Positions 4,478 to 60,383 of a DNA stretch of 64,000 nucleotides are shown in pieces. This stretch comes from Parasphaerochaeta coccoides DSM 17374. GTDB lineage: Bacteria; Spirochaetota; Spirochaetia; Sphaerochaetales; Sphaerochaetaceae. The DNA is taken from the NCBI RefSeq assembly GCF_000208385.1, contig NC_015436.1, positions 434,001 to 498,000 on the forward strand, in the 5' to 3' direction. A model generated the notes under the pieces. That model did not search any database and was not told the DNA's origin. It was given only the letters and a program-made list of their open reading frames with translations. The translations under genes and the position numbers were made by a program. Within the stretch, counting starts at the first letter, position 1. Each line of letters opens with the position of its first letter.

Positions 4478-4500
4478 GTTATATGCTCCCAGCAAAAAGC

Positions 4501-6152: not shown

Positions 6153-6977
6153 ACTGGTTGCCTTGCCTTCTGGATTGATGATGAAATTGGCATGAGAGAA
6201 ACTAACCTGCGCTCCTCCCACCGTTTTCCCCTTGAGTCCGAGGTTGTCAATGATGCGTCCGGCGGAACCTTCCACCGGATTGCGGAACGTGCAACCAGCT
6301 GAAGGATAGCGGTAATGCCCATGTTCCGTCCGGCGTCTCAGGGCTTCCTCCTTTTTCAAACGAGCTTCTGCCATCTTGCGGGTCGGGTTCAGGATAAAGC
6401 CCGCCTCTATGATGAAACACTGTTCATCCCCAGGGAAAGACGAATGATGATAGGCGAAGGTTTCACCAGTGTTCTGCATTCTATGCAATGCTCCGTCAGG
6501 AGTCATGTAATCGATGTACAACAATACATCGCTGATTGTCATTTCTTTGATTCCGGCGTTTCCCGCTATGGCACCTCCTACGGTACCAGGCAGTCCGCCC
6601 AGAAGTTCAAGGCCGGTGAGTCCCATTTCAATGGACGTGTTGATTGCATTGTCAAGGGACAGACCGGACTGGGTGCAGAAAAGCCTGCCCCGGCTGTGGC
6701 ATGATGTCAGGTGATCTGAAAAAATCACCAGGCCGCGTATGCCTTTGTCGCTGACAAGGATGTTCGTTCCTCCTCCGACATACGTGACGGGCACATTCCT
6801 GCTATGGGCAAACTCCATGGCCTCACGGAGCTGTTCGGAAGTCGAAGGCCACGCCGCCCAATCCGCGAAACCTCCTGTCCCCAGGGAAGTATGAGCGGAC
6901 ATGAGGACATTCTGCCTGATGAAGGGATCCGATTTTGATTCCGGGTTTGATTTTCCCCCCTCATTGCTTATTTTCAT
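6033..6977 (-). CDS. murB: UDP-N-acetylenolpyruvoylglucosamine reductase
   Basis: The FAD enzyme reduces UDP-GlcNAc-enolpyruvate to UDP-MurNAc with NADPH, the second committed step of peptidoglycan precursor synthesis. The FAD domain shows GGGTNILVSDKGIRG and LGGLPGTVGGAIAGNAG. The C-terminal substrate domain has YPSAGCTFRNP, where Cys replaces the Ser proton donor of the E. coli enzyme, and ends with the GIDL-EV-IGDW block. The frame is open far upstream but overlaps cysS, so the start is ATG 6977 or ATG 6983, two codons earlier; neither has a strong ribosome site. It is divergent from cysS. Its presence argues for a cell wall precursor pathway in this organism. Confidence 0.9.
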   Translation of the reverse strand: MKISNEGGKSNPESKSDPFIRQNVLMSAHTSLGTGGFADWAAWPSTSEQLREAMEFAHSRNVPVTYVGGGTNILVSDKGIRGLVIFSDHLTSCHSRGRLFCTQSGLSLDNAINTSIEMGLTGLELLGGLPGTVGGAIAGNAGIKEMTISDVLLYIDYMTPDGALHRMQNTGETFAYHHSSFPGDEQCFIIEAGFILNPTRKMAEARLKKEEALRRRTEHGHYRYPSAGCTFRNPVEGSAGRIIDNLGLKGKTVGGAQVSFSHANFIINPEGKATSSDIFELSRLIHETVFKETGIDLQREVRLIGDWDICNTKA

Positions 6978-7049
6978 TTGCATGAGTACTATGGTAATGT
7001 GTTTTCCTGTTGCGGACAACAGCCGCATATCATATATAAGGAGCGAGCC

Positions 7050-8486: not shown

Positions 8487-8514
8487 CCTCACATGGAGGT
8501 CGGTTGTTACACAG

Positions 8515-9042
8515 ATGGAAATAAAAAGCAGCAACGAAGCGTCATTCAGACTTGTATATGAGCAGGTTTTCCCCGTCATCATGCGTGTAGCGTACCACAT
8601 TAGCTATAACATGGATGTCGCGGAAGACATAGCACAGGAAACGTTCATACGTTTCTTTGACAAGAACATGGATTTCGCTACCATGGATGATGCCCGTTAT
8701 TGGTTGATCAGGGTGGCGAAGAACTTGGCCATCAATCATGTGAAGCGTAGGAGCAGGGAGCGTGGTGCTTTAGAGCAGTTGAAGACTATACCCGTGGCTC
8801 CGTCCATTGACGGTGGTGATGTGATGATGGCCGATGAGACCAAGGCTTTGGTACGGGAGGCGATAGCGAATTTGCCGGAAAAGTTCCGTACCGTCATGGT
8901 TCTCAAGGAGTATTCTGGCTTGGATTACCGGCAGATTGCTTCGGTGTTGCAGATTTCTGAGAGCAATGTGAAGGTTCGCGTTCATCGCGCACGCAAGATG
9001 ATGGAATCATTGCTGGACAGGGAGGATGTTCATGTGCCTTGA
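8515..9042 (+). CDS. ECF-type RNA polymerase sigma factor
   Basis: A 175-residue sigma factor of the extracytoplasmic-function class that directs RNA polymerase to a small set of stress or envelope promoters. Region 2 runs from about residue 10 to 75, with the DVAEDIAQETFIRFF segment and the YWLIRVAKNLAINHVKRR helix. Region 4 runs from about 115 to 168, with LPEKFRTVMVLKEYSGLDYRQIA and a helix-turn-helix ending NVKVRVHRARK. GGAGGT lies 14 bases before the ATG, rather far. The gene overlaps the following anti-sigma gene, the standard ECF arrangement, so its activity is probably held by that partner. Confidence 0.92.
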   Translation: MEIKSSNEASFRLVYEQVFPVIMRVAYHISYNMDVAEDIAQETFIRFFDKNMDFATMDDARYWLIRVAKNLAINHVKRRSRERGALEQLKTIPVAPSIDGGDVMMADETKALVREAIANLPEKFRTVMVLKEYSGLDYRQIASVLQISESNVKVRVHRARKMMESLLDREDVHVP

Positions 9043-42889: not shown

Positions 42890-45652
42890 CTATTTATTGC
42901 CCACGTGCAATACTCCGCTCAGGGTGAGCAGGGGAGATATGCCGATGGGAGATGTGTCATCCTGACGAACCTCAGCACGTGCCCGTATGCCGAAGGTTCC
43001 GTTGTCATAGCCACCTTCAGCGTACCATGCCGCATAAACAGGATTGAGGAAGCTTTCAATACCAGAGCTACTGGAGAACAAGGCTTTCCAACTATCGATG
43101 ACGCTGATGTGGCTCATGCCGACACCGAGTATCCACGATTTCAGGTTGATGCTCAGGCCAATGCTGCCGCGATCCGCTTTCCGAGTGGAATCAACGTTAG
43201 GAAGCGCCGGATTCAGGGTCGCCAAGGCAAACCCCTGTGCCTCGAAAGGAAGCGTATAGTCGGCGGACAGGGAGAAAACACCCAAAGACAGCAAGATGTC
43301 GCCGCCTATGACAATCGTATCACTGCCAGATGTAAGCGGGATACCGGAGAAAGACGTACTGTTAAACCTGTCCGTGCTGGGTTCACCATGGTTGTAGGCA
43401 ACGAACAGAGAAGCGCGGGTACTGTCGGCAATGCGTGTGTCAAGGCGCACGCTGAGCAGTGCATTGGGGAACTTATCCTCGAAACCGGAACCCGTGCCAA
43501 CATAGATGGTGGAAGACGATGGATTCAGGGCATCAACATACGTGCCGAGCGTCAACGAGAGTCCAAGGAAAAGGTCGCGTGTATCCTGTAAGGTGAAAGA
43601 AACATCCATGGCGGGGAAAAGTGGCATATCGGAAAGAGTGCCTCCGGTCATCCTTAACCCCATGACTCCTGAAAATCCGATAGCAAAGGATGATGACGGC
43701 TTTAAAGCAAACCGGAGCATGGCGGCCTGGAAACCGCCTCCTACAAGGGATGTTCCATACAGGTCATCAATATACAGCTCCTGGGCAATAAGATTTGAAT
43801 TATAAGCCTGTCTGAGAGGCAGAATCTTGCCTGAACTGAATTTCGGGTCATAGGCACTCATCACGGTCAGATGGTCACGCCCTTGAAAGGAGGAACCATC
43901 GGCGTTAATGAAGAACCCATTGTAGCGGGAACCATAACTGATATGGTCGATGAAACGCAGGACGGAAGCTCCGATGGACAGGGGTGAGGATGTATCGAAA
44001 TCAACGACGTTTCCTCCCCATGAAAGAGGAGAGTCAAAGACAAGCGAAACATCTGCACGCAATCCCAGGCGGAAACCATTGGTGATGAAGTACGGTATGA
44101 GAGCGAGAGACATTCCTGACTTACCGTTCTCCACCTGGTGGAAACCAGACAGCACGGAGTCAACGCCCCAGATAAAAGATGGCGCAGGCGCGTCACCCCT
44201 CAGGATTGCCGCGGCTCCTGTTTGTGGAACGACGACAGGGGAGGATGAACTACCGGATGAAACAGGGGCATCGGTTCCCACGGTTTCCGTGTTCAGGCGA
44301 TTGTCAATTACGGTGGAGTCATCAGAAAATACGGGAGCTGGCGGAACGTTCGATGTTATTTCAGACAAAGAGAATTCAGGAGCTGGCGGCCGGGTAGCAG
44401 GAGCGTTCAACGTTACTTCACTCCAAGAGAATTCAGGGGTAGACGGACGGGCAGGCACGACATTCCAAGTCGCTGTCGAAGAAAATTCCGGCGTAGGAGC
44501 AACGAGCAAAGTCACGGATGGTGACGTGCTGAATTCTGGAGTATCGGGCGTAGTCTTCATGATTTCCACAGAGATTGTGGAAGCGAACAAAGGCACTGGA
44601 GGAGGCAAAAAATCTGTCTTTATTCCATCGCTGAATTGCGGTGCATCAGGAACAATAATGACTGTAGGTGGTTCAGGAAGTGTAGGCGGCTCAGGAACTG
44701 TAGGCGGTTCAGAAATGGGTTCAGGAATAATTACATCAACTCCGATGATTGAGGAAAAAACAGGGATATCAGGCGGAGCTATGATTGATGTCGTGCCAGA
44801 ATCAGGATCTTCCGATGTGTAAAATTCCACCTGTATGGTGCTGGAGAACTCAGGAGCAACAGGTGTGCCATGTACGACAGGCACATCAGGAGAAACAGGC
44901 GTGGCAGGCTCGTCAGGTACGTCAGGAGAAACAGGTGTGGCAGGTTCGTCAGGTACGTCAGGAGAAACAGGTGTGGCAGGTTCGTCGGGTACATCAGGAG
45001 AAACAGGCGTGGCAGGTTCGTCGGGTACATCAGGAGAAACAGGCGTGGCAGGTTCGTCAGGTACATCAGGAGAAAGGGGGACGACCATGGGACCAGAGCC
45101 ATAATATTCTTCCGGACCGGGGATCATATCCAGGAACGTCATGTCATGAAGATCTGTCAGAGTACCTGTGATGCTGTTGAAAGCAGTGACTTCACCGGTG
45201 AACGTATAAATCCATTCTTCATCATCCATCGTGGCGACCATGAATTCAGCAGGAGCTTGGGCGGTGAACAGGGATACCGGAGTGAAGACAGTGATGGCAA
45301 CCATAGGGTTATTGCTGGTTCTAGCCCTTATTGTTCCTTCCAGCACATAGAGATCAAGCTTATTAGAGGAAAAACGGCTGAACGCCACTGTAGAACCGGC
45401 AGTCATGCTGACGCGGAAATTCAGATTCTCGGAAACCAGGCGCGTCGGACGAACGGCGTGAACCAGCCATGACTCCTCAAGACCGTTGGTGGAGATGCGA
45501 TTGTCTTCTACCCTGGTTCCGTCTTTATCATAAACGATGACGCTATCGGCGGTTTCTCCATCAATGAATAACCGAGCAGAGAACGCGGGAATTGTCGCGG
45601 AAGCCAATAGCAGCACTATCAATAAAATCCGTGACATATTTATTTTTCTCAT
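42890..45652 (-). CDS. Exported repeat protein with FecR-like start and beta-barrel end
   Basis: A 920-residue surface protein. Residues 1-26 are a signal peptide ending AFSA. Residues ~60-160 resemble a FecR-like beta domain (AGSTVAFSRFSSNKLDLYVLEGTIRA, then FTAQAPAEFMVATM). From ~190 to 265 there are five full and one partial 12-residue repeats, SPDVPDEPATPV, coded by 36-bp tandem repeats. More Pro-rich degenerate repeats follow, such as PEFSSTI, to about residue 460. The last ~440 residues are strand-rich and would form an outer-membrane barrel or adhesin domain. A rigid Pro spacer between periplasmic and barrel parts is likely. Confidence 0.7.
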   Translation of the reverse strand: MRKINMSRILLIVLLLASATIPAFSARLFIDGETADSVIVYDKDGTRVEDNRISTNGLEESWLVHAVRPTRLVSENLNFRVSMTAGSTVAFSRFSSNKLDLYVLEGTIRARTSNNPMVAITVFTPVSLFTAQAPAEFMVATMDDEEWIYTFTGEVTAFNSITGTLTDLHDMTFLDMIPGPEEYYGSGPMVVPLSPDVPDEPATPVSPDVPDEPATPVSPDVPDEPATPVSPDVPDEPATPVSPDVPDEPATPVSPDVPVVHGTPVAPEFSSTIQVEFYTSEDPDSGTTSIIAPPDIPVFSSIIGVDVIIPEPISEPPTVPEPPTLPEPPTVIIVPDAPQFSDGIKTDFLPPPVPLFASTISVEIMKTTPDTPEFSTSPSVTLLVAPTPEFSSTATWNVVPARPSTPEFSWSEVTLNAPATRPPAPEFSLSEITSNVPPAPVFSDDSTVIDNRLNTETVGTDAPVSSGSSSSPVVVPQTGAAAILRGDAPAPSFIWGVDSVLSGFHQVENGKSGMSLALIPYFITNGFRLGLRADVSLVFDSPLSWGGNVVDFDTSSPLSIGASVLRFIDHISYGSRYNGFFINADGSSFQGRDHLTVMSAYDPKFSSGKILPLRQAYNSNLIAQELYIDDLYGTSLVGGGFQAAMLRFALKPSSSFAIGFSGVMGLRMTGGTLSDMPLFPAMDVSFTLQDTRDLFLGLSLTLGTYVDALNPSSSTIYVGTGSGFEDKFPNALLSVRLDTRIADSTRASLFVAYNHGEPSTDRFNSTSFSGIPLTSGSDTIVIGGDILLSLGVFSLSADYTLPFEAQGFALATLNPALPNVDSTRKADRGSIGLSINLKSWILGVGMSHISVIDSWKALFSSSSGIESFLNPVYAAWYAEGGYDNGTFGIRARAEVRQDDTSPIGISPLLTLSGVLHVGNK
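44880..45075. repeat. 36-bp tandem repeat, five full copies plus a partial one
   Basis: Copies start at 44880, 44916, 44952, 44988 and 45024, with a partial copy at 45060. They differ at only a few positions, so they are recently amplified or kept alike by recombination. Each is an exact multiple of three and codes a 12-residue Pro-rich unit on the minus strand, so copy number changes would not break the frame. Confidence 0.92.
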
Positions 45653-48625: not shown

Positions 48626-48664
48626 TCCGTTGTTGTCGATACGACAAGCCAGTACAGGTTCCAT

Positions 48665-48737
48665 GGCGGCGTAGCTCAGTTGGTAGAGCACACGGCTCAT
48701 ATCCGTTAGGTCAGGGGTCCGAGTCCCTTCGCCGCTA
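48665..48737 (+). tRNA. tRNA-Met (anticodon CAT)
   Basis: Folds as a cloverleaf: acceptor GGCGGCG/CGCCGCT with one G-T pair, D stem GCTC/GAGC, anticodon loop CTCATAT, T loop TCCGAGT, discriminator A. CAT anticodons also occur in initiator and Ile2 tRNAs; the G1-U72 pair and the anticodon stem without three G-C pairs argue against an initiator. No terminator hairpin follows; the AT-rich block begins 80 bases on. Confidence 0.88.
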
Positions 48738-48754
48738 AAACATTTTTGTTTTTC

Positions 48755-48819: not shown

Positions 48820-49494
48820 TTGCAGTATACAAACGATTATATTTTTAAAAACAAAGAGAAAGTTATTTTTAAGAAGAATGAAATAATAGCTGGCGAAAAT
48901 ATTTCTATTGTCCTCTTTAAACCAGATTGTTTTTATAAAAAGAGAGATGATATCGTTTTGTATGACATTATTAGATCTATTTTTGATTTTTATATATGCA
49001 AGAACTCAATGAGAATTTCAATTGAAGCGTGGATAAATACAACACATAAGAAGATTGTATCTTCATATACTAATCTGCATTATCTTGATTTAGTTTACAA
49101 AAATGGTAAGGGAAATACATGGTTAGATGCGGGATTAAAATATATCCAAAATGCTGATTTGAACTATCACTATCCCATAATTTTTATTTTGCTTGTTGGA
49201 CCACATTCTTCAAAGGATTGTATTAAGCAGTTTGTGGATTATTTCTTTAGGATTAATCCCAAGTTATCATCTCATGAGAACACCAAAGTGTTCAACTCTT
49301 CCCCATATTTAAACTCTTTAACTGAAATAAAAAACAAGTATATACATAAAAAAGATAATTTGCTTCATGCATCGGATAATCCTTATGAATGTTTACGAGA
49401 GCTAACAGCCTTTGCAAAATATTATTTGTCGGGAGAAGAATATGAAAACATTCTCAGAGTGGTCGGTAAAAATTGCTTTAACGTCGAATTGTAA
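48820..49494 (+). CDS. Unknown protein, possibly a degenerate VWA domain
   Basis: First gene of the AT-rich block, 224 residues. I do not recognise it with confidence. ISIVLFKPD, GNTWLDAGLKYI and YPIIFILLVGPHSSKD lie in the order of strand and loop elements of von Willebrand A domains, but the DxSxS metal site is absent. Such VWA proteins sit in several peptide-modification and tellurite-type clusters as scaffolds. The start is a TTG at 48820 supported by GGAGAGGAG 4 bases upstream. It overlaps the next gene by 53 bases. Confidence 0.6.
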   Translation: MQYTNDYIFKNKEKVIFKKNEIIAGENISIVLFKPDCFYKKRDDIVLYDIIRSIFDFYICKNSMRISIEAWINTTHKKIVSSYTNLHYLDLVYKNGKGNTWLDAGLKYIQNADLNYHYPIIFILLVGPHSSKDCIKQFVDYFFRINPKLSSHENTKVFNSSPYLNSLTEIKNKYIHKKDNLLHASDNPYECLRELTAFAKYYLSGEEYENILRVVGKNCFNVEL

Positions 49495-50329
49495 TTATTC
49501 TTGTTTTTATTGTAATGATTCTCTAATCCAAGCCCAGAAAAAAAGATTGGATTATGACAAGGTTTCTGCTTTTTTAAAAGCTGCCGCTAACTTGGGAATT
49601 ACGAGAGAAATTCATTGGACAGGAGGAGAATGCACATTAGAAAATCTTGAGGCGTATATGCAACTAGCACATGTTTTGGGGTTCAAGAAGCAAGCAATTA
49701 CATCTAATGGGTTACTGATTGACAAGCATATGGATGCTTTTATTAAGTATAATTTAGAACGGGCAAACCTAAGCATAGACTCTCTCGATAATCAAAAATA
49801 TTTGGAGATTACCGGTATTGATGGTCTCGATAAGGTATTAGAAAATACTCGAAAACTGTTAGACAACAATATAAAAGTAAAGTTCAATGTGGTTTTGATG
49901 CGTCGAAATGTCGACGAAGTATTGGATTTTATTGAATATACTAAACATAATAATATTACTTTAAAAATACATGAGTTATGGAATTATGGTGATGAAAGCC
50001 AATTTCATAAAGAGTATATTGATATTCATTCGATTGAATTATCTATTAAACAATTAGGTTATGATATCGATGAAATTCCTGTCGATTTGCCAACTATAAA
50101 ATATTTCAAGAAAGGCGATCATAATATTGGATTACTTTCTTCTCCCAAAAAAGGAATATGTAATTCAAGATTTTGTAAGCAAATTAAACTTTACGCAGAT
50201 GGAACAACTTGTGAGGGTTGTAGAATTAACAATTACTCGAATCTAGATTTTTTGTTATCCGATTTAATGAATAGTCGGCGACTGGGCGAAATTAAATGGG
50301 GGGATAAAGAGCATGAAGCAGATTTATAA
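49442..50329 (+). CDS. Radical SAM enzyme, MoaA-like (first)
   Basis: A 295-residue radical SAM enzyme. The SAM-binding cluster ligands are C17, C21 and C24 (CNYSCFYC), followed by a GGE motif (WTGGECTLE) that contacts SAM. The C-terminal part has CNSRFCKQIKLYADGTTCEGC, laid out like the second cluster of MoaA. MoaA acts on GTP, so a nucleotide or a peptide substrate is possible. ATG 49442 preceded by GGGAG is preferred to ATG 49412. It overlaps the next radical SAM gene by 17 bases. Confidence 0.88.
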   Translation: MKTFSEWSVKIALTSNCNYSCFYCNDSLIQAQKKRLDYDKVSAFLKAAANLGITREIHWTGGECTLENLEAYMQLAHVLGFKKQAITSNGLLIDKHMDAFIKYNLERANLSIDSLDNQKYLEITGIDGLDKVLENTRKLLDNNIKVKFNVVLMRRNVDEVLDFIEYTKHNNITLKIHELWNYGDESQFHKEYIDIHSIELSIKQLGYDIDEIPVDLPTIKYFKKGDHNIGLLSSPKKGICNSRFCKQIKLYADGTTCEGCRINNYSNLDFLLSDLMNSRRLGEIKWGDKEHEADL

Positions 50330-51320
50330 TCAATGGCATTTAAGGATTTTTTCTACGCCGAAGTGTAATTTGCGGTGCATATACTGTAATCCAGAAGGTA
50401 AGTTTGAAGATCGCAAAATTATGGACGAACAAGTGTTGAATAATGTTATTAAAGCATGTAGTGAATTATCTTTCAAAGGGGTTCATTTTACTGGAGGTGA
50501 ACCAATGATGAGAGAAAATATTATATTGGCCATCAAGTATTGTAAAAACCTTAATTATCATGATATAAGCATGACAACAAATGGAACAGAGTTATTTAAC
50601 CGAAATATTGAAGAACTTGCTCATGCAGGGTTAAAAAGGGTAAATATTAGTTTAGATACAATGTATCGAAATGAATATAAAAAATTATGTGGGTTTGATT
50701 CCTTATTGACAGTAAAAGATTCGATAATAAAGGCTTGTTCATTTTTTTCTTTTGTAAAAATTAATTCAGTCCTATTGCGAAATAATTTGGATAGTATTTC
50801 ATCGCTAATTGATTTTATTCTTTCAATTAAATCAAAGAATATATCACTTAAACTCATTACACTAATGCCTTGCAATCCAATCATGATTACTGAATCCGGA
50901 CATGATTTATTTCACTCAGAGGTTATTGCAGAAGAAGAATTATTAACATATTTGAGGAACAAGTATGATGTAGTTAAAACATGTAGAGTTGTTCCTGGTG
51001 ATAATCCTAATACAGTCCACATGACTTTAGATGGGTTATCTGTGGAATATTTATCTATGCCATCTTGGAATTATAAATGTGCTGATGCAGGATGTAAAAA
51101 ATTCCGGTTGTCACCATATGGCGAACTATCAATTTGTTTAAACGATAATCCTTACAATATAAATGGATTATCTGTCGAAGAAATTAGAGATATTATCCGG
51201 ATGAAAGTAGATTCTAAGGAAGAGACTCTGCCTAAAGATCGGATACATTATGCAAAAACCATAGGTGCAGTTCGATTTGGAAATGTTTATGGACGGACTG
51301 ATATAAATACTTTTCAATAA
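50313..51320 (+). CDS. Radical SAM enzyme, MoaA-like (second)
   Basis: A 335-residue enzyme related to the preceding one. Cluster ligands C18, C22 and C25 (CNLRCIYC), GGEPMM for SAM binding, and a C-terminal CADAGCKKFRLSPYGELSICL block matching the MoaA second cluster. Both radical SAM proteins begin with a similar Trp-containing strand (W-x-x-(K/R)I), which suggests an old duplication. Having two such enzymes side by side points to two successive radical steps or a heterodimer. The ribosome site GGGGGGATAAAGAG lies inside the previous gene. Confidence 0.88.
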   Translation: MKQIYNQWHLRIFSTPKCNLRCIYCNPEGKFEDRKIMDEQVLNNVIKACSELSFKGVHFTGGEPMMRENIILAIKYCKNLNYHDISMTTNGTELFNRNIEELAHAGLKRVNISLDTMYRNEYKKLCGFDSLLTVKDSIIKACSFFSFVKINSVLLRNNLDSISSLIDFILSIKSKNISLKLITLMPCNPIMITESGHDLFHSEVIAEEELLTYLRNKYDVVKTCRVVPGDNPNTVHMTLDGLSVEYLSMPSWNYKCADAGCKKFRLSPYGELSICLNDNPYNINGLSVEEIRDIIRMKVDSKEETLPKDRIHYAKTIGAVRFGNVYGRTDINTFQ

Positions 51321-51332: not shown

Positions 51333-52103
51333 ATGAGAGAAATTAATATCCCAAATTATTTAATTGATTCTTTTAGAACGCTTTATTTGGCGGGATCTTA
51401 TGTTGAGGGCTTTAATACAACAACATCAGATATAGATATATATGAAATTTGTAAAGACGAACATCCTAAGGCAGATAGGGTTTGGGATTATAGGAAGATT
51501 CAAGACATCCATGATAATGGCATACATTATGAAATAGAATTAATTCCCGAAAAGCATATTAGTGATCTAAAGAAGAAAGTCGAATGCTCCATTAAGGAAT
51601 TAGATGACAATAATTTTATCTTAAGTTTCCATGAATTTCAAATGATATGGGATATAATTATTGGAGTCCCCATTGGTGATAAGACCTCGTTCAGGGAATA
51701 TCAAACATACTTTTTGGAGAAAAAAAATCAAATCTCAATTCTCCTTGTAAAACAGAATGGATTGTTTGTTCGAAATGCTTATGAAGATATTTTGGGCTTA
51801 ATGCAAGCTGATGACTATTTTTCTGCATATTTTCGTAGTATAGATTTACTTAATCGTACCGCGGACTTATTAATCGCATTTAATGAAATATTAAATACAA
51901 AAACAAAATGGCGATATAAGAAACTTGGTCAGGCGGGCTTATATACGTTCCAAAAGAAATATTATACTTTTTTTGCAGAAAAGGTTATCAGGTCTCAGAT
52001 TTTCATTGAGGAGATTATTCAATTTTGTCATAAAGAAATATCCAAACTGGGTATTAACAAGGACGCACAAGAATGGATAGATTTGACAAAATACTATGGA
52101 TAA
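51333..52103 (+). CDS. Nucleotidyltransferase (first of three)
   Basis: A 256-residue protein of the pol-beta/kanamycin nucleotidyltransferase superfamily. The active site is intact: GSYVEGFNTTTSDIDIY near residues 20-36, with GS and the paired Asp that bind metal and the nucleotide phosphates. A third acidic residue (EIELIPE) lies near residue 70. The C-terminal part is helical. It would transfer a nucleoside monophosphate to a small molecule, peptide or protein. AAAGGAA precedes the ATG. Confidence 0.8.
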   Translation: MREINIPNYLIDSFRTLYLAGSYVEGFNTTTSDIDIYEICKDEHPKADRVWDYRKIQDIHDNGIHYEIELIPEKHISDLKKKVECSIKELDDNNFILSFHEFQMIWDIIIGVPIGDKTSFREYQTYFLEKKNQISILLVKQNGLFVRNAYEDILGLMQADDYFSAYFRSIDLLNRTADLLIAFNEILNTKTKWRYKKLGQAGLYTFQKKYYTFFAEKVIRSQIFIEEIIQFCHKEISKLGINKDAQEWIDLTKYYG

Positions 52104-52657
52104 GAGAAAGGCTAAGTAGCCTACAAATATCACAAAATGATATATCAATTCTAGGGGTTTGTGGTTCCTATGGGAGATGTGATTTCACTCCTAGTTCTAA
52201 TATTGATATCATGTATATTAATAAAAATTTGTCGCTAGAAACAAAGCAAAGATATGTTACAGGTATTTTCCCAAATGATGTAATACGCATTCATGAATTC
52301 AAAAATGGTAATTTTTTCATTAATGAAATCGATTCAATTATTCTAAGGATTCTTTTCTTGTCTGAAACGATACCTTTCTTTTGTGAAAACTCTTATTGGG
52401 AATTGTACTCAAGAGTTAGTAATTCATTATTAAGAACACACATCAATCCGCAGGAATTGGTTGACTACAAATTATCAAAATATGATATAATTCAAGTCAA
52501 AAAAAGAGAAAGAGTTCAATCTATTTTTCCTCTCCAAATTCGATATGTTTTTTATATACTAGAGTATGAAAATCTAGATTTGCAAAAAAAGATTAATAAC
52601 CTTCCTTTTCTGCAAAAGTATGAAATTATCAAAAATAAAAAGAGGTTTACCTTATGA
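52073..52657 (+). CDS. Nucleotidyltransferase-fold protein with altered metal site (second)
   Basis: A 194-residue protein with CGSYGRCDFTPSSNIDIMYI near residues 30-49. The GS loop is kept, but the first metal-binding Asp of SDxD is Asn (S-N-I-D). It may be an inactive partner or act with a different metal arrangement. It overlaps the first nucleotidyltransferase gene by 31 bases, so the two may form a pair. Confidence 0.7.
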   Translation: MDRFDKILWIRERLSSLQISQNDISILGVCGSYGRCDFTPSSNIDIMYINKNLSLETKQRYVTGIFPNDVIRIHEFKNGNFFINEIDSIILRILFLSETIPFFCENSYWELYSRVSNSLLRTHINPQELVDYKLSKYDIIQVKKRERVQSIFPLQIRYVFYILEYENLDLQKKINNLPFLQKYEIIKNKKRFTL

Positions 52658-53616
52658 GTTTTCGTTTGGATTGGTTAAAAACAAAAGAAAGTCAGTATGA
52701 TATTAACTTATGGCGCGATAAGTATTTTTTTGGTTTTGATTCTTCAGTTATTAAGTCTGCAAGAAAAATTATGGACTACGGATGCGGGGTTGGATATTAC
52801 CTTATTCCTCTTTCACAGCAAGAAGAATACGAAGTTATTGGCGTAGAAAAAGATTTAGATATAATTGGTTATTTAGAATCGATTGGGCAAAAAAATGTAA
52901 TAAATCTTACTAGATTTGAAGAAATAGTTAAGAATGAATCAATGAAATTTGATTTAATTTTATTAATTGATGTTCTTCATAATTATTATTTTTCAATGAC
53001 AGATAGAGCTTTACTAATCTTGAAACTTAAGAAATGTTTATATGAACATGGTCGTATCGTGGTAACATTCAATCATATTTCTGAAAATGAAAGAGAAAGA
53101 ATTTGTTACATTTTCCACATGCTTGGCTTTCAATTATATGAAAAAACTAAATTGAAAGTAATTCATGATGGGCTTCTCAAGTTTGAAACTTTCTATTTTT
53201 TTAGCTTAGAAAGCAATACAAAGCAAACAGATAATTTTTTTCCGTTTCTTTTCTCAAATGTCAAAGACGATATACTTAAAAAATTAGCGTATTCATTGCA
53301 TACGAACTCATTCATAGATATGGAAAAATATGTTGAAAACATAAGCGAACAATATAAAAAGATTTATTTAGAGAATTTCTTTCAAATCCTTGTTGATAGC
53401 AAAAAATTTGAAAAAATATTTCTCTTATTACGGGAACCCTTTGAAATAAAATATAAAAATGATGAATTTGGCGCGGAAATTATTTCTGTGAATAATAGGC
53501 TAAAAGAACAGAATAAAAGATTTGGAGACATTTTTTTCTGGAAAGATTCATTGCTAGAAATAATCATCTCTTCGAAAGATGATACAATAAAAATACATTA
53601 TATTAGTTTTAAATAA
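52654..53616 (+). CDS. SAM-dependent methyltransferase
   Basis: A 320-residue class I methyltransferase. Motif I is MDYGCGVGYYLIPLS near residue 38, followed by an acidic strand end VIGVEKD and the motif IV-like FDLILLIDVLHNYY near residue 100. The C-terminal 140 residues after the fold are of unknown role and very rich in Lys, Phe and Ile. It overlaps the previous gene by 4 bases (ATGA). Likely tailors the block's product. Confidence 0.82.
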   Translation: MSFRLDWLKTKESQYDINLWRDKYFFGFDSSVIKSARKIMDYGCGVGYYLIPLSQQEEYEVIGVEKDLDIIGYLESIGQKNVINLTRFEEIVKNESMKFDLILLIDVLHNYYFSMTDRALLILKLKKCLYEHGRIVVTFNHISENERERICYIFHMLGFQLYEKTKLKVIHDGLLKFETFYFFSLESNTKQTDNFFPFLFSNVKDDILKKLAYSLHTNSFIDMEKYVENISEQYKKIYLENFFQILVDSKKFEKIFLLLREPFEIKYKNDEFGAEIISVNNRLKEQNKRFGDIFFWKDSLLEIIISSKDDTIKIHYISFK

Positions 53617-53628: not shown

Positions 53629-54843
53629 ATGAAATTGATCTCACAATACAAAGGACTGAATAAAAACTTTTATATTATGACTTTTACTGTACTAATTAAT
53701 TGTGCAGGAAGTTTTGTTTCTGTTTTCTTATCTTTGTACCTAACTATTATGCTCGGTTTTAATACTGCGTATACAGGCTTAATTGTTTCAATATATACAT
53801 TATTACATATTCCGGGTTCTCTGATTGGTGGAAAACTTGCTGATGCTTGTGGACGAAAAGTGACAATGGTCGTCAGCCAAATCATTATGGGAGTATGCTT
53901 TATTCTTGCAGGCTTTATCTTATATTCTGAATTTGTTTTAATCGTATTGTTTATCGCAAACTTTTGCGATGGAATAACAGACCCCGCTCGAAGTGCTTTA
54001 GAAGTAGATATGACCACTCCACAAGACAGACAAGTTGCTTTCAGCCTTTTATACCAAGCCTTCAACATTGGTTTTGCAATAGGACCACTTCTTGCTGGCA
54101 TGCTTTTTTATTCTCATCCGCAATGGTTGTTCTGGGGGAATGGGATTGCGTTGATTACTTCAATTTTGGCGGTGACTTTGTTTGTCCCTGATTATAGGCC
54201 TAAAATAATACCAAATTCACCAGACACAATTAACAATTCTGGTGAGAATGCAGTTGAGGGTTCAATAGTAAAGGTATTGCTCTCTCGCCCACAATTGCTT
54301 CTATTCTCTGTTGGGGTTTTCTTTGTTGCATTTTCTTATAAACAAATATCATTTGTGTTGCCAATACAGTTAAACACAATGTTTGGTGCTGACGGAGTAC
54401 GAATATATGGAATTGTTGCAGCTATAAATGCCTTTTCTGTAATTATTTTGAATCCTGTGATATTAAATATAAGTAAGAAAAATAACATTTTAAAAAATAT
54501 CCTATTTGCTATTCTACTTTATGCAATTGCTTTTTCTTTTTTGGGATTTGCGAATATTCCTTGGCATTTTTTCCTACTAACTTTGCTTTATACAATAGGA
54601 GAAATACTGTTAAATAATAATTCGAAAGCTTATCAAAATAATAATACACCCGTAAACTTTAGGGGCCGGTTTAATGCCATACTTCCATTATATAAAACAT
54701 CTGGTACCATGATTGCGCCAATCATTGGTGGGATTATTTTATCCAGATACTCTTATATTGTGTTATGGATACTCTCTGGAAGCTTGTCATTAATAACTTA
54801 TTTTATTTATTTGCACATATATAAAAAATATGAGAGTAAATAA
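53629..54843 (+). CDS. MFS transporter, probable exporter
   Basis: A 404-residue transporter with twelve hydrophobic helices. Motif A appears as GGKLADACGRKVTM after helix 2, typical of drug and peptide efflux members. In this setting it most likely exports the pathway product and gives part of the self-protection. Ribosome site GGGAGATAG precedes the ATG. Confidence 0.85.
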   Translation: MKLISQYKGLNKNFYIMTFTVLINCAGSFVSVFLSLYLTIMLGFNTAYTGLIVSIYTLLHIPGSLIGGKLADACGRKVTMVVSQIIMGVCFILAGFILYSEFVLIVLFIANFCDGITDPARSALEVDMTTPQDRQVAFSLLYQAFNIGFAIGPLLAGMLFYSHPQWLFWGNGIALITSILAVTLFVPDYRPKIIPNSPDTINNSGENAVEGSIVKVLLSRPQLLLFSVGVFFVAFSYKQISFVLPIQLNTMFGADGVRIYGIVAAINAFSVIILNPVILNISKKNNILKNILFAILLYAIAFSFLGFANIPWHFFLLTLLYTIGEILLNNNSKAYQNNNTPVNFRGRFNAILPLYKTSGTMIAPIIGGIILSRYSYIVLWILSGSLSLITYFIYLHIYKKYESK

Positions 54844-54861: not shown

Positions 54862-55629
54862 ATGAAAAAAGAATTAATAATAAAAGGTATAGAGAATTAT
54901 ATTTGCCAGAAATTGAATGAAAATATTGAGTCAGAAGATATTGTGCTATGGATAGGTTCAACAGCCAATGGATTGAGTAATAGTTATTCAGATATTGATT
55001 TACTACTGATAACAGCTTCTCCTGATTACAAGACGTACACAGCATTTGATGGGGAAACTTATTTGATTTCTGAAATACATAATGATTTAAGATTTGATGT
55101 TGAAATAATTGACAAGGGAAAACTACTCAACATAATTGGTAGGGTTAACTCAGTTCAGGATCTAATGAAATTTCATGATTTGATTCTTTCTGAATCAGAA
55201 TTGGATTTACTATGTAATGTTCTAAATGCAATATGTATAAGAAATAAAGATGGATATCTTAGATTAAGAGACAAGATTTCTCTAGATAGGTTGTGCGAGT
55301 GTATCAAAAATCGATATCAAGGAAGATTTTATAATGAACTAGAAGATATGCGTGGCTTTATTTCTGAAAAGCAATTTTATAATATATCATATATGACTTT
55401 CAGGATGATAGTTTCTTTTCTTCTTGTATTACTATCACATTTTAGAATTGCGTTTATTAAGGAAAAATGGCTATTAAATTACGTAATGAGAAAGATACCA
55501 ACAACACAGTTTGATTTGGATTCGGTTAAGGAATTATATTCGTATTGTATTGATCCAAGCAATCCTAACATGGATACAATTAATAATTTTTTATTTAGAA
55601 TAACAAATCTGATGAATATACTTGCGTAG
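54862..55629 (+). CDS. Nucleotidyltransferase (third)
   Basis: A 255-residue nucleotidyltransferase with intact GSTANGLSNSYSDIDLLLI near residues 32-50 and an acidic FDVEIID strand near 85. The C-terminal half is helical, as in the first nucleotidyltransferase; the two differ enough to have separate roles. Separated from the MFS gene by 18 bases and followed after 9 bases by the PqqD-type gene. GGGAGG precedes the ATG. Confidence 0.82.
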   Translation: MKKELIIKGIENYICQKLNENIESEDIVLWIGSTANGLSNSYSDIDLLLITASPDYKTYTAFDGETYLISEIHNDLRFDVEIIDKGKLLNIIGRVNSVQDLMKFHDLILSESELDLLCNVLNAICIRNKDGYLRLRDKISLDRLCECIKNRYQGRFYNELEDMRGFISEKQFYNISYMTFRMIVSFLLVLLSHFRIAFIKEKWLLNYVMRKIPTTQFDLDSVKELYSYCIDPSNPNMDTINNFLFRITNLMNILA

Positions 55630-55638: not shown

Positions 55639-55905
55639 ATGGCAGAAAAATATGTGAGAAATATTTTTGTTAGGTTGGGAAAAATTGGCGATCAGAGTTT
55701 TTTAATTAACGGAAGGCAATGCTTCGAGGTTAATGAGATTGGCGCCTTTATTTGGAATTGCTTTTCAACTCCTACTGATATTGATGTTATTCGAAAAAAA
55801 GTACTTGATTCTTATGAAGTGGAGAATGAAAAGAAAATTGAGCATGACTTGTATAAGTTTATTGAAATGTTAAAAAAGTTTGATTTGATAGATAAGGTTG
55901 TCTAA
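55639..55905 (+). CDS. PqqD-family leader-peptide-binding protein
   Basis: An 88-residue protein with the PqqD/RRE pattern: three strands at the start (GKIGDQSFLINGRQCFEVNEIGAFIWNCF) and a helical end (IEHDLYKFIEMLKKFDLIDK). RREs bind the leader of a ribosomal precursor peptide and present it to modifying enzymes. This is the strongest single sign that the block makes a RiPP. Stop codon and next start abut (TAA-ATG). AGGAGG precedes the ATG. Confidence 0.85.
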   Translation: MAEKYVRNIFVRLGKIGDQSFLINGRQCFEVNEIGAFIWNCFSTPTDIDVIRKKVLDSYEVENEKKIEHDLYKFIEMLKKFDLIDKVV

Positions 55906-56640
55906 ATGAATTATGAACCAAATAAAACTGGCTACACAGTATTGCAAAGCATTTTTTTGCTTGTTATTACGACGACTGTGTTATTATATTGTTATATTGA
56001 GGGAAAACTTTATTATGGCTTGATTATTATGGTGTCATTTTCTTTGCAACAAATATGTCTATGGAAATTAAAACGAAAAAGAATTTTTCTTGAAAAAACA
56101 ATTTTATTTTTTACATATTTTTTCCCATTGCTATTTGGATTAAAAGATAATACGGAATTTACTGTTCCAATGCAGGTTTTTCTTTTTAGCGGTATTGTTG
56201 TAATTGTTTTATATTATCTGATAAACAGACGCAGTATAAAAATACTTCTATCGAAAGAATACATCGAAAAATATAGTCCACCCCTTAATAAAAAAGAGTT
56301 CTCTATAGAATGTTATTCGCTATTTACAATACCAATTGCCGAGGAGTTTTTTTTTAGAAACTTTCTTTTCTCGCTATTTAATAAATCTTTGATTTCTGTG
56401 ATATTTACTGTCTTAATTATCTCTTTTTTGTTTGTTGTATCACACTATAATTCTCCCTGGGCTCCCTATTTAATGGGGAAAAAAGATTTGTTTTGGCTTT
56501 TCATATTATCTAGTTTTTTAATTATCTTAAAGCTATCATTTCAATCAATTATTTTATGTATTTTAGTTCATTATTTTTTTAATTTACCTACTTTCTTAAA
56601 TTACCTTAGTAGGCTAAAAAAAAGTAAAGTATACAAATAG
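55906..56640 (+). CDS. CPBP-family intramembrane protease
   Basis: A 244-residue membrane protein with about seven helices. The CPBP (Abi) metal-protease motifs are present: E146-E147-x3-R151 in AEEFFFRN, a His in SHYNSPW near residue 181 and HxxxN in LVHYFFNLP near 225. CPBP proteins are found as leader proteases and as bacteriocin immunity proteins; either fits here. It starts directly after the PqqD stop codon. Confidence 0.8.
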   Translation: MNYEPNKTGYTVLQSIFLLVITTTVLLYCYIEGKLYYGLIIMVSFSLQQICLWKLKRKRIFLEKTILFFTYFFPLLFGLKDNTEFTVPMQVFLFSGIVVIVLYYLINRRSIKILLSKEYIEKYSPPLNKKEFSIECYSLFTIPIAEEFFFRNFLFSLFNKSLISVIFTVLIISFLFVVSHYNSPWAPYLMGKKDLFWLFILSSFLIILKLSFQSIILCILVHYFFNLPTFLNYLSRLKKSKVYK

Positions 56641-56652
56641 ATTTTTCTTTGA

Positions 56653-56671
56653 TATAATAAAAAAAAGGAGG
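56653..56671 (+). promoter_or_regulatory. TATAAT -10 and strong ribosome site of the precursor gene
   Basis: A perfect TATAAT lies at 56653-56658, with no good -35, and AAAGGAGG at about 56664-56671, seven bases before the ATG at 56679. A private promoter would raise peptide output above that of the enzymes. Confidence 0.5.
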
Positions 56672-56678: not shown

Positions 56679-56747
56679 ATGAAACAGAAATATTCTAAAC
56701 CTGTTATTCGTGTCGTTAAATTACCTGCTGGATTTGTATCACTCTAG
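56679..56747 (+). CDS. Putative 22-residue RiPP precursor peptide
   Basis: A short gene with the best ribosome site in the block. It encodes 22 residues: a basic start (MKQK), then Y5-S-K-P8-V-I and an ending LPAGFVSL, with no Cys. Y-x-x-P at residues 5-8 resembles the leader motif bound by PqqD-type (RRE) proteins in lasso-peptide systems. With a leader of about 13 residues, a core of only about 9 is implied. It lies between the CPBP protease and the SPASM radical SAM gene, as precursors do, and is followed by a hairpin. Precursor status is inference; no homologue was searched. Confidence 0.68.
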   Translation: MKQKYSKPVIRVVKLPAGFVSL

Positions 56748-56769
56748 ATGATAATTATTCACTTCGATG

Positions 56770-56791
56770 GCAGAGAGGGTAGCCTCTCTGC
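56770..56791 (+). terminator. Hairpin between precursor and radical SAM gene (possible attenuator)
   Basis: GCAGAGAGG (56770-56778) pairs perfectly with CCTCTCTGC (56783-56791) around a 4-base loop. Only TTATTAGTT follows, so termination would be partial. Such hairpins after precursor genes let peptide mRNA exceed enzyme mRNA, and also protect it from decay. Confidence 0.7.
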
Positions 56792-56809
56792 TTATTAGTT
56801 GACTATTCT

Positions 56810-57742
56810 ATGAAAGATGATTTAAATAATTATCCGCAAAAATTCAATGTCTTAATTACATCAAAATGTAATTTACGTTGTAAGCATTGCTATTTGGATC
56901 CGAGACAAACTGAATTATCAGTCAAAGACTTCTCTTCCATAATAGATTATCTAAAGAAAATAAAAATAAAAGAACTTTGTATAGAAGGTGGTGAGCCTTT
57001 ATGTCATCAATATTTTGATCAAATTTGTTCCTCGCTTCTTAATCTGAGATGCAATAAAAAAATAGTTACTAACGCAACGTTGCTAACAGAAGAAATAGTT
57101 TATTTAATTGACAAAACATTTGACACTGTTCAAGTAAGTATTGATGGAGGAACAAAGGAAGAATATGAAATAATAAGAGGTAAAAACTCTTTCTCTAAAC
57201 TAATAACTGGGCTAAATTATTTATCAAAAATAAAAGATAAAGTTCAAATTAATTTTGTTCTGACTGCATTAAATTATTTTCAAATTGATAAACTTTTTTC
57301 TTTAGCTAGGGAATATGGACTATATCAGTTCCGTTTTATTTATGTAGTAGATTTTTCTGGGAATATCGTTCCTTCAGAAGAAATAGTTTTATATTTTATT
57401 TCTAAATTACTAGGGTTAATTACGATATACAAGGAAGCAAAAATAAATTTAGTTTTTCCCGAAAGAGTAATACATAAATATAGGGACTTACTATTATCTA
57501 ATAAAATTGAAAATTATGTTGGGATTTGTTATGCAGGAACTGTTTATACGGTAATTGATTCTGATAAAATTGTGTACCCGTGTAATTTCTTAGTAGGAAA
57601 AAAACCTCTGTTTTCGTTTGAACCACAAAGTTTTTATAGCGAGTGGCAAAGATGTGTTTTTTTTAATAATTTGCGAAATGATTTGCAGAATAAAGAGTGT
57701 GAAGGATGTCCGGCTAATATAAACTGTATTGATAGGGGGTGA
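56810..57742 (+). CDS. Radical SAM/SPASM enzyme, probable precursor-modifying
   Basis: A 310-residue radical SAM enzyme. SAM-cluster ligands are C20, C24 and C27 (CNLRCKHC), with GGEPL for SAM contact near residue 62. The C-terminal part has Cys in GICYAGTV, YPCNFL, WQRCVFF and ECEGCPANINC (C297, C300, C306), a SPASM-type auxiliary cluster set typical of enzymes that act on peptides. Coming straight after the precursor gene, it is the likely peptide-modifying enzyme. The next gene, the ValRS, starts 1 base after its TGA. Confidence 0.88.
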   Translation: MKDDLNNYPQKFNVLITSKCNLRCKHCYLDPRQTELSVKDFSSIIDYLKKIKIKELCIEGGEPLCHQYFDQICSSLLNLRCNKKIVTNATLLTEEIVYLIDKTFDTVQVSIDGGTKEEYEIIRGKNSFSKLITGLNYLSKIKDKVQINFVLTALNYFQIDKLFSLAREYGLYQFRFIYVVDFSGNIVPSEEIVLYFISKLLGLITIYKEAKINLVFPERVIHKYRDLLLSNKIENYVGICYAGTVYTVIDSDKIVYPCNFLVGKKPLFSFEPQSFYSEWQRCVFFNNLRNDLQNKECEGCPANINCIDRG

Positions 57743-57743: not shown

Positions 57744-60383
57744 ATGGATTCTCAGTTTTGGCATAAAGAATGCGAAGAAAAGATTTATACTATGTGGAGA
57801 TCAAAAAAAGAATTTTCTCCTCAGTATGATAAGTTAAAAGAGACTTTTTCCATGGTAATGCCTCCTCCTAATGTAACTGGCATTCTCCATATGGGTCATG
57901 CCTTGAACAATAGCCTTCAGGATGTAATAGTAAGATATCACAGAATGAAAGGAATGGCTGTTCTTTGGCTCCCGGGGACCGACCATGCTGGCATCGCCAC
58001 TCAAAATGTTGTAGAACGCCAATTGAATAATGAGGGACTAGGAAGACATGATATTGGTCGGGAAAAATTCTTGGAACGTACTTGGTTAGTCAAGGAAAAT
58101 CATCACAACATCATAAAAAGTCAGCTCGAGAAGATGGGTTGCTCTTGCGATTGGGAACATGAGCGTTTCACCATGGACGAGGGAGCAAGCCGTGCCGTTA
58201 GAGAAGCATTTGTTACTCTTTACGAAAAAGGACTAATTTATAAAGGCAAATACCTTGTAAACTATTGCTATAAATGCGGTACAGCTCTCTCAGATGACGA
58301 GGTGGAATATGATAGTATTCAGGGTAAGCTTTATCATGTGAGATACCCATATGCAGATGGTTTGGGATATATAACTGTAGCCACAACTAGGCCTGAAACT
58401 ATGTTTGGGGATGTTGCTGTAGCTGTGCATCCGGAGGATAAAAGATATAAAAATATTGTCGGAACTATTTTGTGTATTCCGCTAACAGATAGGAAAATAC
58501 CAATTATTGCTGATAGTTTTGTCGACAGAGAATTTGGAACAGGGATGGTTAAAATCACACCTGCACACGATACAAATGACTGGGAGTGTGGGATTAGAAA
58601 TAATTTAGAAATGGTGAACATTCTCAATCCTGACGGAACACTCAACGGCAATTGTCCTCAAAAATACAGGGGCATTCTAGCTTCCGATGCCAGAGATATT
58701 ATTGTCAAGGATTTAGAAGAAGGAGGATTTATAACCGAAATTAATGACCATGTTCATGATGTTGGTCATTGTTATCGTTGTCATACCGTTATTGAACCAT
58801 ACCTCTCTGATCAGTGGTTTGTTAAGATGAAAGGTCTTGCAAAAAAAGCTTTGGGGGCTCTAAAACGGAACGATATAGTGTTTTATCCTAGAAGATGGGA
58901 AAATACATATTGCCATTGGTTAGAGACAATTCGCGACTGGTGTATATCTCGCCAGTTGTGGTGGGGACACCGTATCCCTGTATGGTATTGCAAAGATTGT
59001 GGTAAGGTAATTGTGAGCAGGGAAGACCCTTCATGCTGTCCGAAATGCCATAAGACTAATCTCTTGCAGGATAATGATGTCCTCGATACATGGTTCTCTT
59101 CTTGGCTCTGGCCGTTCAGTACTCTTGGTTGGCCTGACAAGACAGCGGATCTTGATAATTTCTTCCCAACAAGTACTCTTGTATCTGCCTATGATATCAT
59201 ATTCTTCTGGATTAGCCGCATGATTATGAGCAGTAAAGAGTTTCTTGGTAAGGTTCCATTTAGAGACATCGTTATCACAGGACTTGTTAGAGACATAAAA
59301 GGTCGCAAGATGGCAAAATCTCTTGGTAACGGCATTGATCCTAATGAAATAATTGATCAATATGGCGCTGATGCGATGAAATTTACATTGTGCTATGTAA
59401 CTACCTTGGGTCAGGATTTGTTAATTGAAAAGAATTTATTTAATCTAGGAAGTCGGTTTACCAATAAAATCTGGAATGCCGCTCGCTTTTTGCTATTGAA
59501 TTTAGAAGGACGGAATATACGCACTATTGATGAGTCTGAATATTCTATTATGGATCGATGGATTTATGGTAGATTTAATTATGCCTGTCAAAAAATTAGT
59601 TATTCGATAGAGAATTATAAATTTAGTGATGCTGCTCAATGTATATATTCGTTTTTTTGGAATGATTTTTGTGATTGGTATATTGAGTCAAGCAAACAGA
59701 AACTTCTACATGGTACTAAGGAAGAAAAGGATAAGGCGATTTCAATTCTAATGGATATGCTTGAAGCATCTATGCGTCTTATGCACCCATTTCTCTCTTT
59801 TATTACTGAGGAAATTTATCAGAAGCTACCGAATCATATGGGGGATGTAATTGTCGCTCAATATCCGATATTTGATAAAACTCGTTGTTACGATGATGCG
59901 CATATACTTGTGACCTCACTCCAAGATGTTGTAAGAACTGTACGTGTTGTTAGAAACAACCTCCAAATTGCTCCTGATAAAAAATTGAAAGTAGTATTCA
60001 GACCGTCTGAAGTCTTTTTAGCATCAGATTTAATCGAGAGCGAGAAGGGATTCATATCTTCATTAATTGGTGCATCTATATTTATTGTTGATAAGGAGTC
60101 CACGCAGCCCATAAATGGTGCATTTCCTGTAAATGGGCTTGGATATGAATGCTTTGTCTTCGTGCGCGAAGCAATCAATGTAGATTCTGAAATTGAAAGA
60201 TTGAAAGCCGATACAGTAAAAGCAAAAAAAGCTCTTTCATTGGTTGAAGCCAAGCTTGCAAACCAATCATTTATAATGAATGCAAGACAGGCCGCAATTG
60301 AAAAGGAGCAAGCAAAAAGGAAAGAATTTCTTGAGGAAATTAGGAAAAACAATATACATATAGAATTATTGTCTTCTTTTTAA
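57744..60383 (+). CDS. Second valyl-tRNA synthetase, candidate self-immunity enzyme
   Basis: A full-length 879-residue ValRS, clearly homologous along its length to the housekeeping enzyme at 18284: HMGH at residues 49-52, editing domain ATTRPETMFGDVAVAV and ITPAHDTNDWE, zinc sites, anticodon domain DFCDWYIE and C-terminal coiled coil. It differs at conserved active-site places: KMAKS at 522-526 where the other has KMSKS, SAYD at 481-484 for TGYD, and IVITG for VYMTG before the KMSKS loop. Duplicate, drug-insensitive synthetases protect makers of mupirocin, albomycin, indolmycin and agrocin. Immunity to a ValRS inhibitor is the best reading; supply of Val-tRNA for biosynthesis is an alternative. 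ATG 57744 follows AGGGGG; a TTG at 57729 is in frame. Confidence 0.92.
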   Translation: MDSQFWHKECEEKIYTMWRSKKEFSPQYDKLKETFSMVMPPPNVTGILHMGHALNNSLQDVIVRYHRMKGMAVLWLPGTDHAGIATQNVVERQLNNEGLGRHDIGREKFLERTWLVKENHHNIIKSQLEKMGCSCDWEHERFTMDEGASRAVREAFVTLYEKGLIYKGKYLVNYCYKCGTALSDDEVEYDSIQGKLYHVRYPYADGLGYITVATTRPETMFGDVAVAVHPEDKRYKNIVGTILCIPLTDRKIPIIADSFVDREFGTGMVKITPAHDTNDWECGIRNNLEMVNILNPDGTLNGNCPQKYRGILASDARDIIVKDLEEGGFITEINDHVHDVGHCYRCHTVIEPYLSDQWFVKMKGLAKKALGALKRNDIVFYPRRWENTYCHWLETIRDWCISRQLWWGHRIPVWYCKDCGKVIVSREDPSCCPKCHKTNLLQDNDVLDTWFSSWLWPFSTLGWPDKTADLDNFFPTSTLVSAYDIIFFWISRMIMSSKEFLGKVPFRDIVITGLVRDIKGRKMAKSLGNGIDPNEIIDQYGADAMKFTLCYVTTLGQDLLIEKNLFNLGSRFTNKIWNAARFLLLNLEGRNIRTIDESEYSIMDRWIYGRFNYACQKISYSIENYKFSDAAQCIYSFFWNDFCDWYIESSKQKLLHGTKEEKDKAISILMDMLEASMRLMHPFLSFITEEIYQKLPNHMGDVIVAQYPIFDKTRCYDDAHILVTSLQDVVRTVRVVRNNLQIAPDKKLKVVFRPSEVFLASDLIESEKGFISSLIGASIFIVDKESTQPINGAFPVNGLGYECFVFVREAINVDSEIERLKADTVKAKKALSLVEAKLANQSFIMNARQAAIEKEQAKRKEFLEEIRKNNIHIELLSSF

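Follow-up and report, generated by a model that had tools for sequence, protein, structure and literature searches.

What does a gene for a peptide of 22 residues do in a gene block where the peptide carries the YxxP motif associated with lasso peptide leaders, and the block has no lasso cyclase? The locus belongs to Parasphaerochaeta (Sphaerochaeta) coccoides DSM 17374, a spirochete of the termite gut, and was analyzed within a stretch of 64,000 nucleotides (the window) that corresponds to bases 434001-498000 of a complete genome of 2,227,296 bases. Unless otherwise indicated, positions are those of the window, and all the features of the block and its signals are on the plus strand.

The gene (56679..56747) has 22 codons and encodes the peptide MKQKYSKPVIRVVKLPAGFVSL, which includes the motif Y5-x-x-P8, lacks Cys and has the C-terminus LPAGFVSL. 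A Shine-Dalgarno sequence, AGGAGG (56666..56671), is placed 7 nt upstream of the ATG, and it is preceded by a promoter-like site with an extended −10 region, TATACA-17-TATAAT (56630..56658), that matches 10 of the 12 consensus positions and whose TATAAT (56653-56658) follows a TG dinucleotide; the assignment of this site is a consensus match only. The spacer between the peptide gene and the following SPASM gene carries a 10-bp hairpin (56769..56792) and folds with a dG of -20.6 kcal/mol (z -3.3). This hairpin was also a match in a terminator-like scan; its poor T run makes an attenuator or an mRNA end no less likely than a full terminator. Open reading frames were scanned for a length of 18-30 residues, a Shine-Dalgarno sequence, a basic start and the motif YxxPx[VIALTM]. 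The single match in the 64-kb window was 56679-56747; 30 Markov-shuffled windows gave none, and neither did 691 kb of other loci, except for a second copy of this same locus. The scan was built with the motif already known, therefore it gauges rarity and not discovery. An earlier note on this DNA had described the gene together with its ribosome site, the TATAAT, the downstream hairpin, the lack of Cys and the ending LPAGFVSL, and all of this is borne out by the sequence and its translation, the rarity in the scan and the folding. The open reading frame is short and no orthologue was found in other spirochetes, as might be expected if it were spurious; against this, the ribosome site, the promoter, the hairpin, the rare motif and six look-alikes make that reading extremely improbable, and we conclude that 56679-56747 is a real precursor-type peptide gene.

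The peptide gene is the eleventh of a run that begins after a tRNA-Met gene (48664-48738). The first gene encodes a 224-residue protein with no assigned function (48820..49494), and it is followed by two MoaA-like radical SAM proteins, A (49412..50329) and B (50313..51320), the nucleotidyltransferase NT1 (51333..52103, PF01909), the nucleotidyltransferase-like protein NT2 (52073..52657), a SAM-dependent methyltransferase (52654..53616), an exporter of the MFS family (53629..54843) and a further nucleotidyltransferase, NT3 (54862..55629, PF01909). The GS..SDID motif is intact in NT3, and NT2 has SNID where the other nucleotidyltransferases have SDID, hence NT2 is possibly inactive. A comparison of the nucleotidyltransferase profile with the PDB gave weak matches only, to MNT antitoxin and terminal transferases. 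Immediately before the peptide gene are those for a PqqD-type RiPP recognition element (RRE) of 88 residues (55639..55905, PF05402, E 5e-11) and for a CPBP/Rce1-like intramembrane protease (55906..56640, PF02517), a candidate leader peptidase. After the peptide come a radical SAM protein with a short SPASM-like C-terminus (56810..57742) and an extra valyl-tRNA synthetase, ValRS (57744..60383), whose gene starts 1 nt past the SPASM stop codon. The nearest curated model for the 56810-57742 protein is the mycofactocin protein MftC (97 bits, with a cut-off of 265). Its SPASM part stops just past CxxCx5C, and usual SPASM domains are longer.

The GC content is 27-34% in the block and 35-40% in its valS gene, compared with 47-53% in both flanks, which indicates that the block is a foreign island that takes in valS. 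An orthologous block was not found in Spirochaetota when PqqD and the nucleotidyltransferase were searched in up to 393 spirochete genomes. Among viral and genome contigs no relevant homologue of the SPASM protein was detected, one match being a heme-biosynthesis locus; the best four spirochete SPASM matches belong to unrelated loci. Elsewhere in the window, the region 42890-45652 encodes a large protein in which PVSPDVPDEPAT is repeated about six times in tandem.

The YxxP motif is common to the leaders of lasso peptides, PQQ and the linear polyphosphorylated peptides (LPP), and peptides with YxxP and no cyclase have been described (PMC13381572). The missing lasso cyclase is thus not an anomaly. 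LppB recognizes the YxxP leader through N33 and D70, its contacts for the Pro kink and the Tyr, and loss of these residues weakens or nearly abolishes leader binding (PMC13381572). We aligned the PqqD protein of the block with PDB 9x8z, whose chain was taken as LppB because a numbering offset of 18 fits every contact residue named in that work. Residues N32, Y59, D70 and F74 of the block protein are identical to the LppB contacts N33, Y60, D70 and F74, and I34, I38, V55 and I67 are conservative with respect to other contact residues. An AlphaFold model of the block protein calculated without an alignment was poor (pLDDT 52) and was set aside. This match of the contact residues gives good support to predicted binding of the leader by the adjoining PqqD protein, as the earlier note had suggested from the motif: the N and D residues are present at the positions that would bind YxxP. 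There is strong support, as judged from these residues, for the N-terminal part of the peptide, KYSKPVIRVVKL, being a YxxP leader held by the 55639 PqqD protein. The locus thus has the features expected of a putative RiPP with a discrete PqqD-type RRE, in that the RRE adjoins a short peptide with an RRE-binding motif.

The label lasso-type that the earlier note gave to the motif does not stand, since YxxP is also found in PQQ and LPP leaders and, as the same note had correctly observed, the block has no cyclase; on both counts the peptide does not classify as a lasso peptide. A lasso pathway whose cyclase is encoded outside the block would account for the YxxP leader, the PqqD protein and the weak similarity of the latter to lasso_PqqD_Bac (34 bits, with a cut-off of 80). 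In addition, lasso clusters of the paeninodin/pseudomycoidin type share with the block the YxxP/WxxP leader, a PqqD-type B1 protein and, in some clusters, a nucleotidyltransferase (PMC8498205). They differ from it in the cyclase and in the core: the peptide has no acidic residue (Asp or Glu) among its 22, and its core of approximately 8 residues is short and lacks the ring-forming Asp/Glu that a lasso peptide has at core position 7-9 of a longer core. Moreover, the only Asn_synthase-type gene over the cut-off in the genome is 1.6 Mb away, no B2-type protease is present among the Pfam matches of the block, and the relatives in Parageobacillus and Corynebacterium have no cyclase either. We consider a lasso pathway very improbable.

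These relatives were reached from plasmids. A tblastn search of plasmids with the block PqqD protein retrieved one locus, in Parageobacillus caldoxylosilyticus ER4B, that includes CPBP, MFS and PqqD genes as well as a nucleotidyltransferase related to NT1 and NT3; just upstream of its CPBP gene there is an unannotated open reading frame of 23 residues, MKKTYSTPKVTEVKVNTAVIINV. Further loci were reached by searching with the nucleotidyltransferase and PqqD of Parageobacillus. In plasmid pCgly1 of Corynebacterium glyciniphilum the peptide is MKKAYRKPEATKAEFGAIMAWPG, with 23 residues and the ending AWPG; on one side are genes for CPBP, nucleotidyltransferase, PqqD, a kinase and MFS, and on the other side trpS and a GNAT gene. 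The peptide of Nonomuraea gerenzanensis, MKKRYVKPVVRHIDLLGAVIID, has a weak ribosome site and lies in a record that is entirely unannotated. The remaining peptides are from Streptomyces europaeiscabiei (MRKYTKPTAKTISQGTVLRDNA), S. scopuliridis (MRKYTKPAVKAITQGTVLRDTA) and Streptomyces sp. NBC_00853 (MQKYIKPATKKADFGTVVKNNV). In each of these six loci PqqD, a nucleotidyltransferase and one unannotated YxxP peptide of 22-24 residues were found, so that, with the window, a PqqD, a PF01909-type nucleotidyltransferase and such a peptide coincide at seven loci. When NT1 was used as the query against plasmids, the matches were confined to two loci of this class. Nucleotidyltransferase loci of Agrobacterium and Neorhizobium showed no convincing YxxP peptide and were not counted.

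All seven peptides keep the M, Y and P, and 17-18 residues separate the Y from the end; a strong hairpin is present directly 3' of the peptide gene at five of the seven loci (four of the six related ones), with z values from -3.3 to -6.7. The earlier note had proposed that related blocks should conserve the Y, the P and the ending of the peptide. The expectation holds for Y, P and the length, which are kept in six independent loci, and fails for the ending, given that LPAGFVSL is not conserved among the sister peptides. Enzymes other than PqqD and the nucleotidyltransferase vary among the seven loci: two of them encode radical SAM proteins, the CPBP gene recurs in Parageobacillus, Corynebacterium and Nonomuraea, the Streptomyces clusters carry AsnB and a diiron oxygenase, and Parageobacillus and NBC_00853 have inositol or aminocyclitol genes, which suggests that the chemistry of the product differs within the family. 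A description of such precursors was not found in the open-access literature (subscription journals and bioRxiv preprints were outside the search), and the YxxP peptides of 22-24 residues apparently represent an undescribed precursor family. That the sister peptides are unannotated means that gene finders overlook precursors of this kind.

The last gene of the block bears on the possible target. The genome contains three full valS genes that score above the TIGR00422 cut-off, located at 18284-20938 of the window, at 1.76 Mb and in the block. The first is of the housekeeping type, near lon and a U32 peptidase gene, a context also observed in one relative. Among 139 genomes of the order, 129 had a valS match, and in each of them the gene is single except in P. 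coccoides; the few double entries among the 129 are partial matches at contig ends. In one related genome the match (G276:C1:244100-246139) has three in-frame TGA codons, an assembly error or a pseudogene, and a second copy was not found there. The 1.76-Mb copy has 91% identity to the housekeeping copy. The block copy shares 62% identity with it; in three genomes from another genus of the same family, each with a single valS, the identity rises to 77-78%. In a tree of 52 sequences it falls inside the group of this other genus (100/100) with a branch of 0.54, compared with 0.02-0.07 for its sisters. From the sequence comparisons, the block valS is judged to have been acquired from a relative and to be evolving fast.

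The signature KMSKS, intact in 49 of 49 relatives, is KMAKS in the block enzyme. Of 340 near-invariant columns, 11 are changed in the block copy and 3 in the 1.76-Mb copy; three of the former (P 0.0008) and two of the latter (P 0.001) fall within the 7 invariant columns of the segment 553-572, which was chosen after inspection, and for which P is near 0.001 when it is taken from one copy and tested in the other. The altered alignment positions are 559, 566 and 569 in the block copy and 560 and 569 in the other. S569L is identical in both, and this shared site alone fits chance (P 0.12). The parallel change seemed stronger with 29 close relatives; with 49, variation appeared at positions 557 and 558, and these were left out. 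At residue 559 of the block enzyme (alignment position 563) L replaces V. The equivalent residue in the isoleucyl-tRNA synthetase (IleRS) of Staphylococcus aureus, with its numbering worked out from the ranges stated for 1ffy and 8c9e, is V631, and V631F in that enzyme brings about mupirocin resistance (PMC9927232). The changed signature and the segment that follows it thus correspond to places where mutations in IleRS confer resistance to mupirocin. Copy number, origin, changed segments and the MFS gene beside the second extra copy, taken together, read as repeated selection for a ValRS that would escape an inhibitor.

The surroundings of the second extra copy were also considered. On the chromosome, the region 1762481-1769308 includes this valS, an MFS gene whose product is 57% identical to the block MFS protein, and a three-gene ABC-2 type exporter with two PF06182 permeases, and it looks like a second locus for immunity or resistance. 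MFS orthologues are frequent in Sphaerochaetaceae and none is within 1.5 kb of valS, hence the MFS gene by itself is not informative as a marker. In one relative, which has no such cluster, 5 kb separates valS from an MFS gene that runs in the opposite direction, and this slightly weakens the link between the two.

An extra valS at the end of the operon, together with three nucleotidyltransferase-like genes and an MFS exporter, all of them overlooked in the earlier note, points to an inhibitor of an aminoacyl-tRNA synthetase. We propose that the block probably directs the synthesis of a peptide antibiotic, made under the guidance of PqqD and directed against ValRS, to which the producer would be immune through a resistant ValRS and the MFS protein. 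The leader, approximately residues 1-14, would be bound by the 55639 PqqD protein, which would offer the C-terminal 7-8 residues (LPAGFVSL) as substrate for the nucleotidyltransferases and for the radical SAM and methyl-transferring enzymes. As gene anatomy suggests, the CPBP protease would cut off the leader and the MFS protein would export the product. This product, or a small molecule freed from it inside the target cell, would inhibit valyl-tRNA synthetase, and the ValRS of the block, as a drug-insensitive copy, would protect the producer; the copy number, the origin, the accelerated change and the places where changes occurred speak for such a self-immunity role of the block copy. As the most likely chemistry we tentatively suggest, by analogy with microcin C, a peptidyl- or aminoacyl-nucleotide-like mimic of Val-AMP that V20 or its vicinity would carry. 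With an altered ValRS of its own, such a cluster provides the precursor sequence, the target and the resistance determinant all at once, and the proposal is in consequence directly testable.

Two other readings have to be weighed against this one. In the first, which overlaps with our proposal and differs from it in the product, the peptide is a scaffold or carrier, as in PQQ or mycofactocin: its C-terminal residues are the source of a small molecule or the site of its assembly, and the bulk of the precursor is discarded, so that the ValRS inhibitor would be an amino acid analogue derived from Val rather than a peptide. A length of 22 residues, the PqqD protein, a SPASM-type radical SAM protein with MftC as its best curated match, the large tailoring sets in the relatives and V20 near the end of the peptide all agree with it, and MftC acts on a C-terminal Val-Tyr. 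The peptide, however, has neither a Glu/Tyr pair like that of PqqA nor a C-terminal VY like that of MftA, and most relatives are devoid of the radical SAM protein; we regard the scaffold as possible, with clearly less than an even chance. It is also conceivable that the block ValRS, as a chance passenger or a stress-specific paralogue, is unrelated to the peptide and that the product of the cluster has another function. An aminoacyl-tRNA synthetase is nearby in just two of the seven peptide loci, ValRS can be swapped among relatives, and the relative with valS and MFS 5 kb apart has no such cluster. Yet the start of valS next to the SPASM stop codon, its inclusion in the low-GC island, the homologous MFS gene beside the second extra valS, the alterations in KMSKS and in the inhibitor-site segment, and the trpS that adjoins the Corynebacterium peptide make an unrelated ValRS unlikely.

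The Corynebacterium locus also suggests a broader idea. Plasmid pCgly1 (locus coordinates 1300-8977) carries trpS, a GNAT acetyltransferase and an ABC importer adjoining the YxxP-peptide cluster, and its location on a plasmid suggests that this trpS is an additional copy. The third residue from the end is V20 of 22 in the peptide with the extra ValRS and W21 of 23 in that with trpS. A match between this residue and the synthetase rests on two cases, and valine is common; it is a lead and not a rule. One could speculate that ribosomal peptide antibiotics across Spirochaetota, Bacillota and Actinomycetota employ a PqqD-guided nucleotidyltransferase of the polymerase-beta type to make an aminoacyl-adenylate mimic from the tail of a peptide of 22-24 residues, the third-from-end residue naming the synthetase that is hit (V in ..GFVSL for ValRS, W in ..MAWPG for TrpRS), but this generalization is rather doubtful. 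The trpS-bearing locus offers a way to test whether the peptide sequence encodes the target.

Two additional plasmid loci with related nucleotidyltransferases were observed. In Exiguobacterium sp. Helios, a plasmid cluster with no PqqD gene includes two AlaRS-like genes, an S66 peptidase (the type to which MccF belongs), a kinase, ATP-grasp proteins and MFS, and is a candidate for an AlaRS-directed antibiotic locus, in line with the synthetase inhibitor proposed for the block. In Agrobacterium pAt1 the nucleotidyltransferase adjoins a dTMP-kinase-like gene, MFS, orotidine decarboxylase genes and ABC transporter genes, in what looks like a nucleotide antibiotic locus.

Among known systems, LPP are similar to the block in the discrete RRE with N and D contacts, the YxxP leader, the NTP transferase and the lack of a lasso cyclase. 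In contrast, LPP precursors have 35-200 residues with the motif YxxPxVLxHQxIxFETxxS, and the clusters include an SpI peptidase, an HprK kinase and an MsbA-type exporter (PMC13381572). The block has a peptide of 22 residues whose corresponding sequence is KYSKPVIRVVKLPAGFVSL, with CPBP, MFS and an aminoacyl-tRNA synthetase, and among its Pfam matches there is no SpI peptidase, HprK-like kinase or MsbA-like exporter. Mycofactocin and PQQ share with it a short precursor, a PqqD-type chaperone and a SPASM-type radical SAM protein; the C-terminal residues and partner genes do not correspond, the curated cut-offs are not reached, and the peptide ends in VSL where MftA ends in VY. With microcin C and other peptidyl-nucleotide antibiotics it has in common a very short ribosomal peptide, a nucleotidyl transfer enzyme, an exporter and an immunity centred on an aminoacyl-tRNA synthetase. 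The logic would be that of microcin C, with PqqD and a polymerase-beta-type nucleotidyltransferase replacing the ThiF-type MccB; no match to this adenylyltransferase was found in the block with Pfam, and the precursor is PqqD-guided and not a heptapeptide. MccF and the GNAT domain of MccE are the immunity proteins of microcin C (PMC12250964), whereas an insensitive ValRS is the proposed immunity here. The target, AspRS for microcin C, would be ValRS in the block. IleRS2, an extra class I synthetase, is a known case in which an altered signature motif brings about resistance to mupirocin (PMC10485003); in our case the altered KMSKS is located in a ValRS. Tested in this way, the locus is not a member of the lasso, LPP, microcin C, PQQ or mycofactocin systems, and it represents a RiPP-type pathway of a known kind whose target is most likely a new one.
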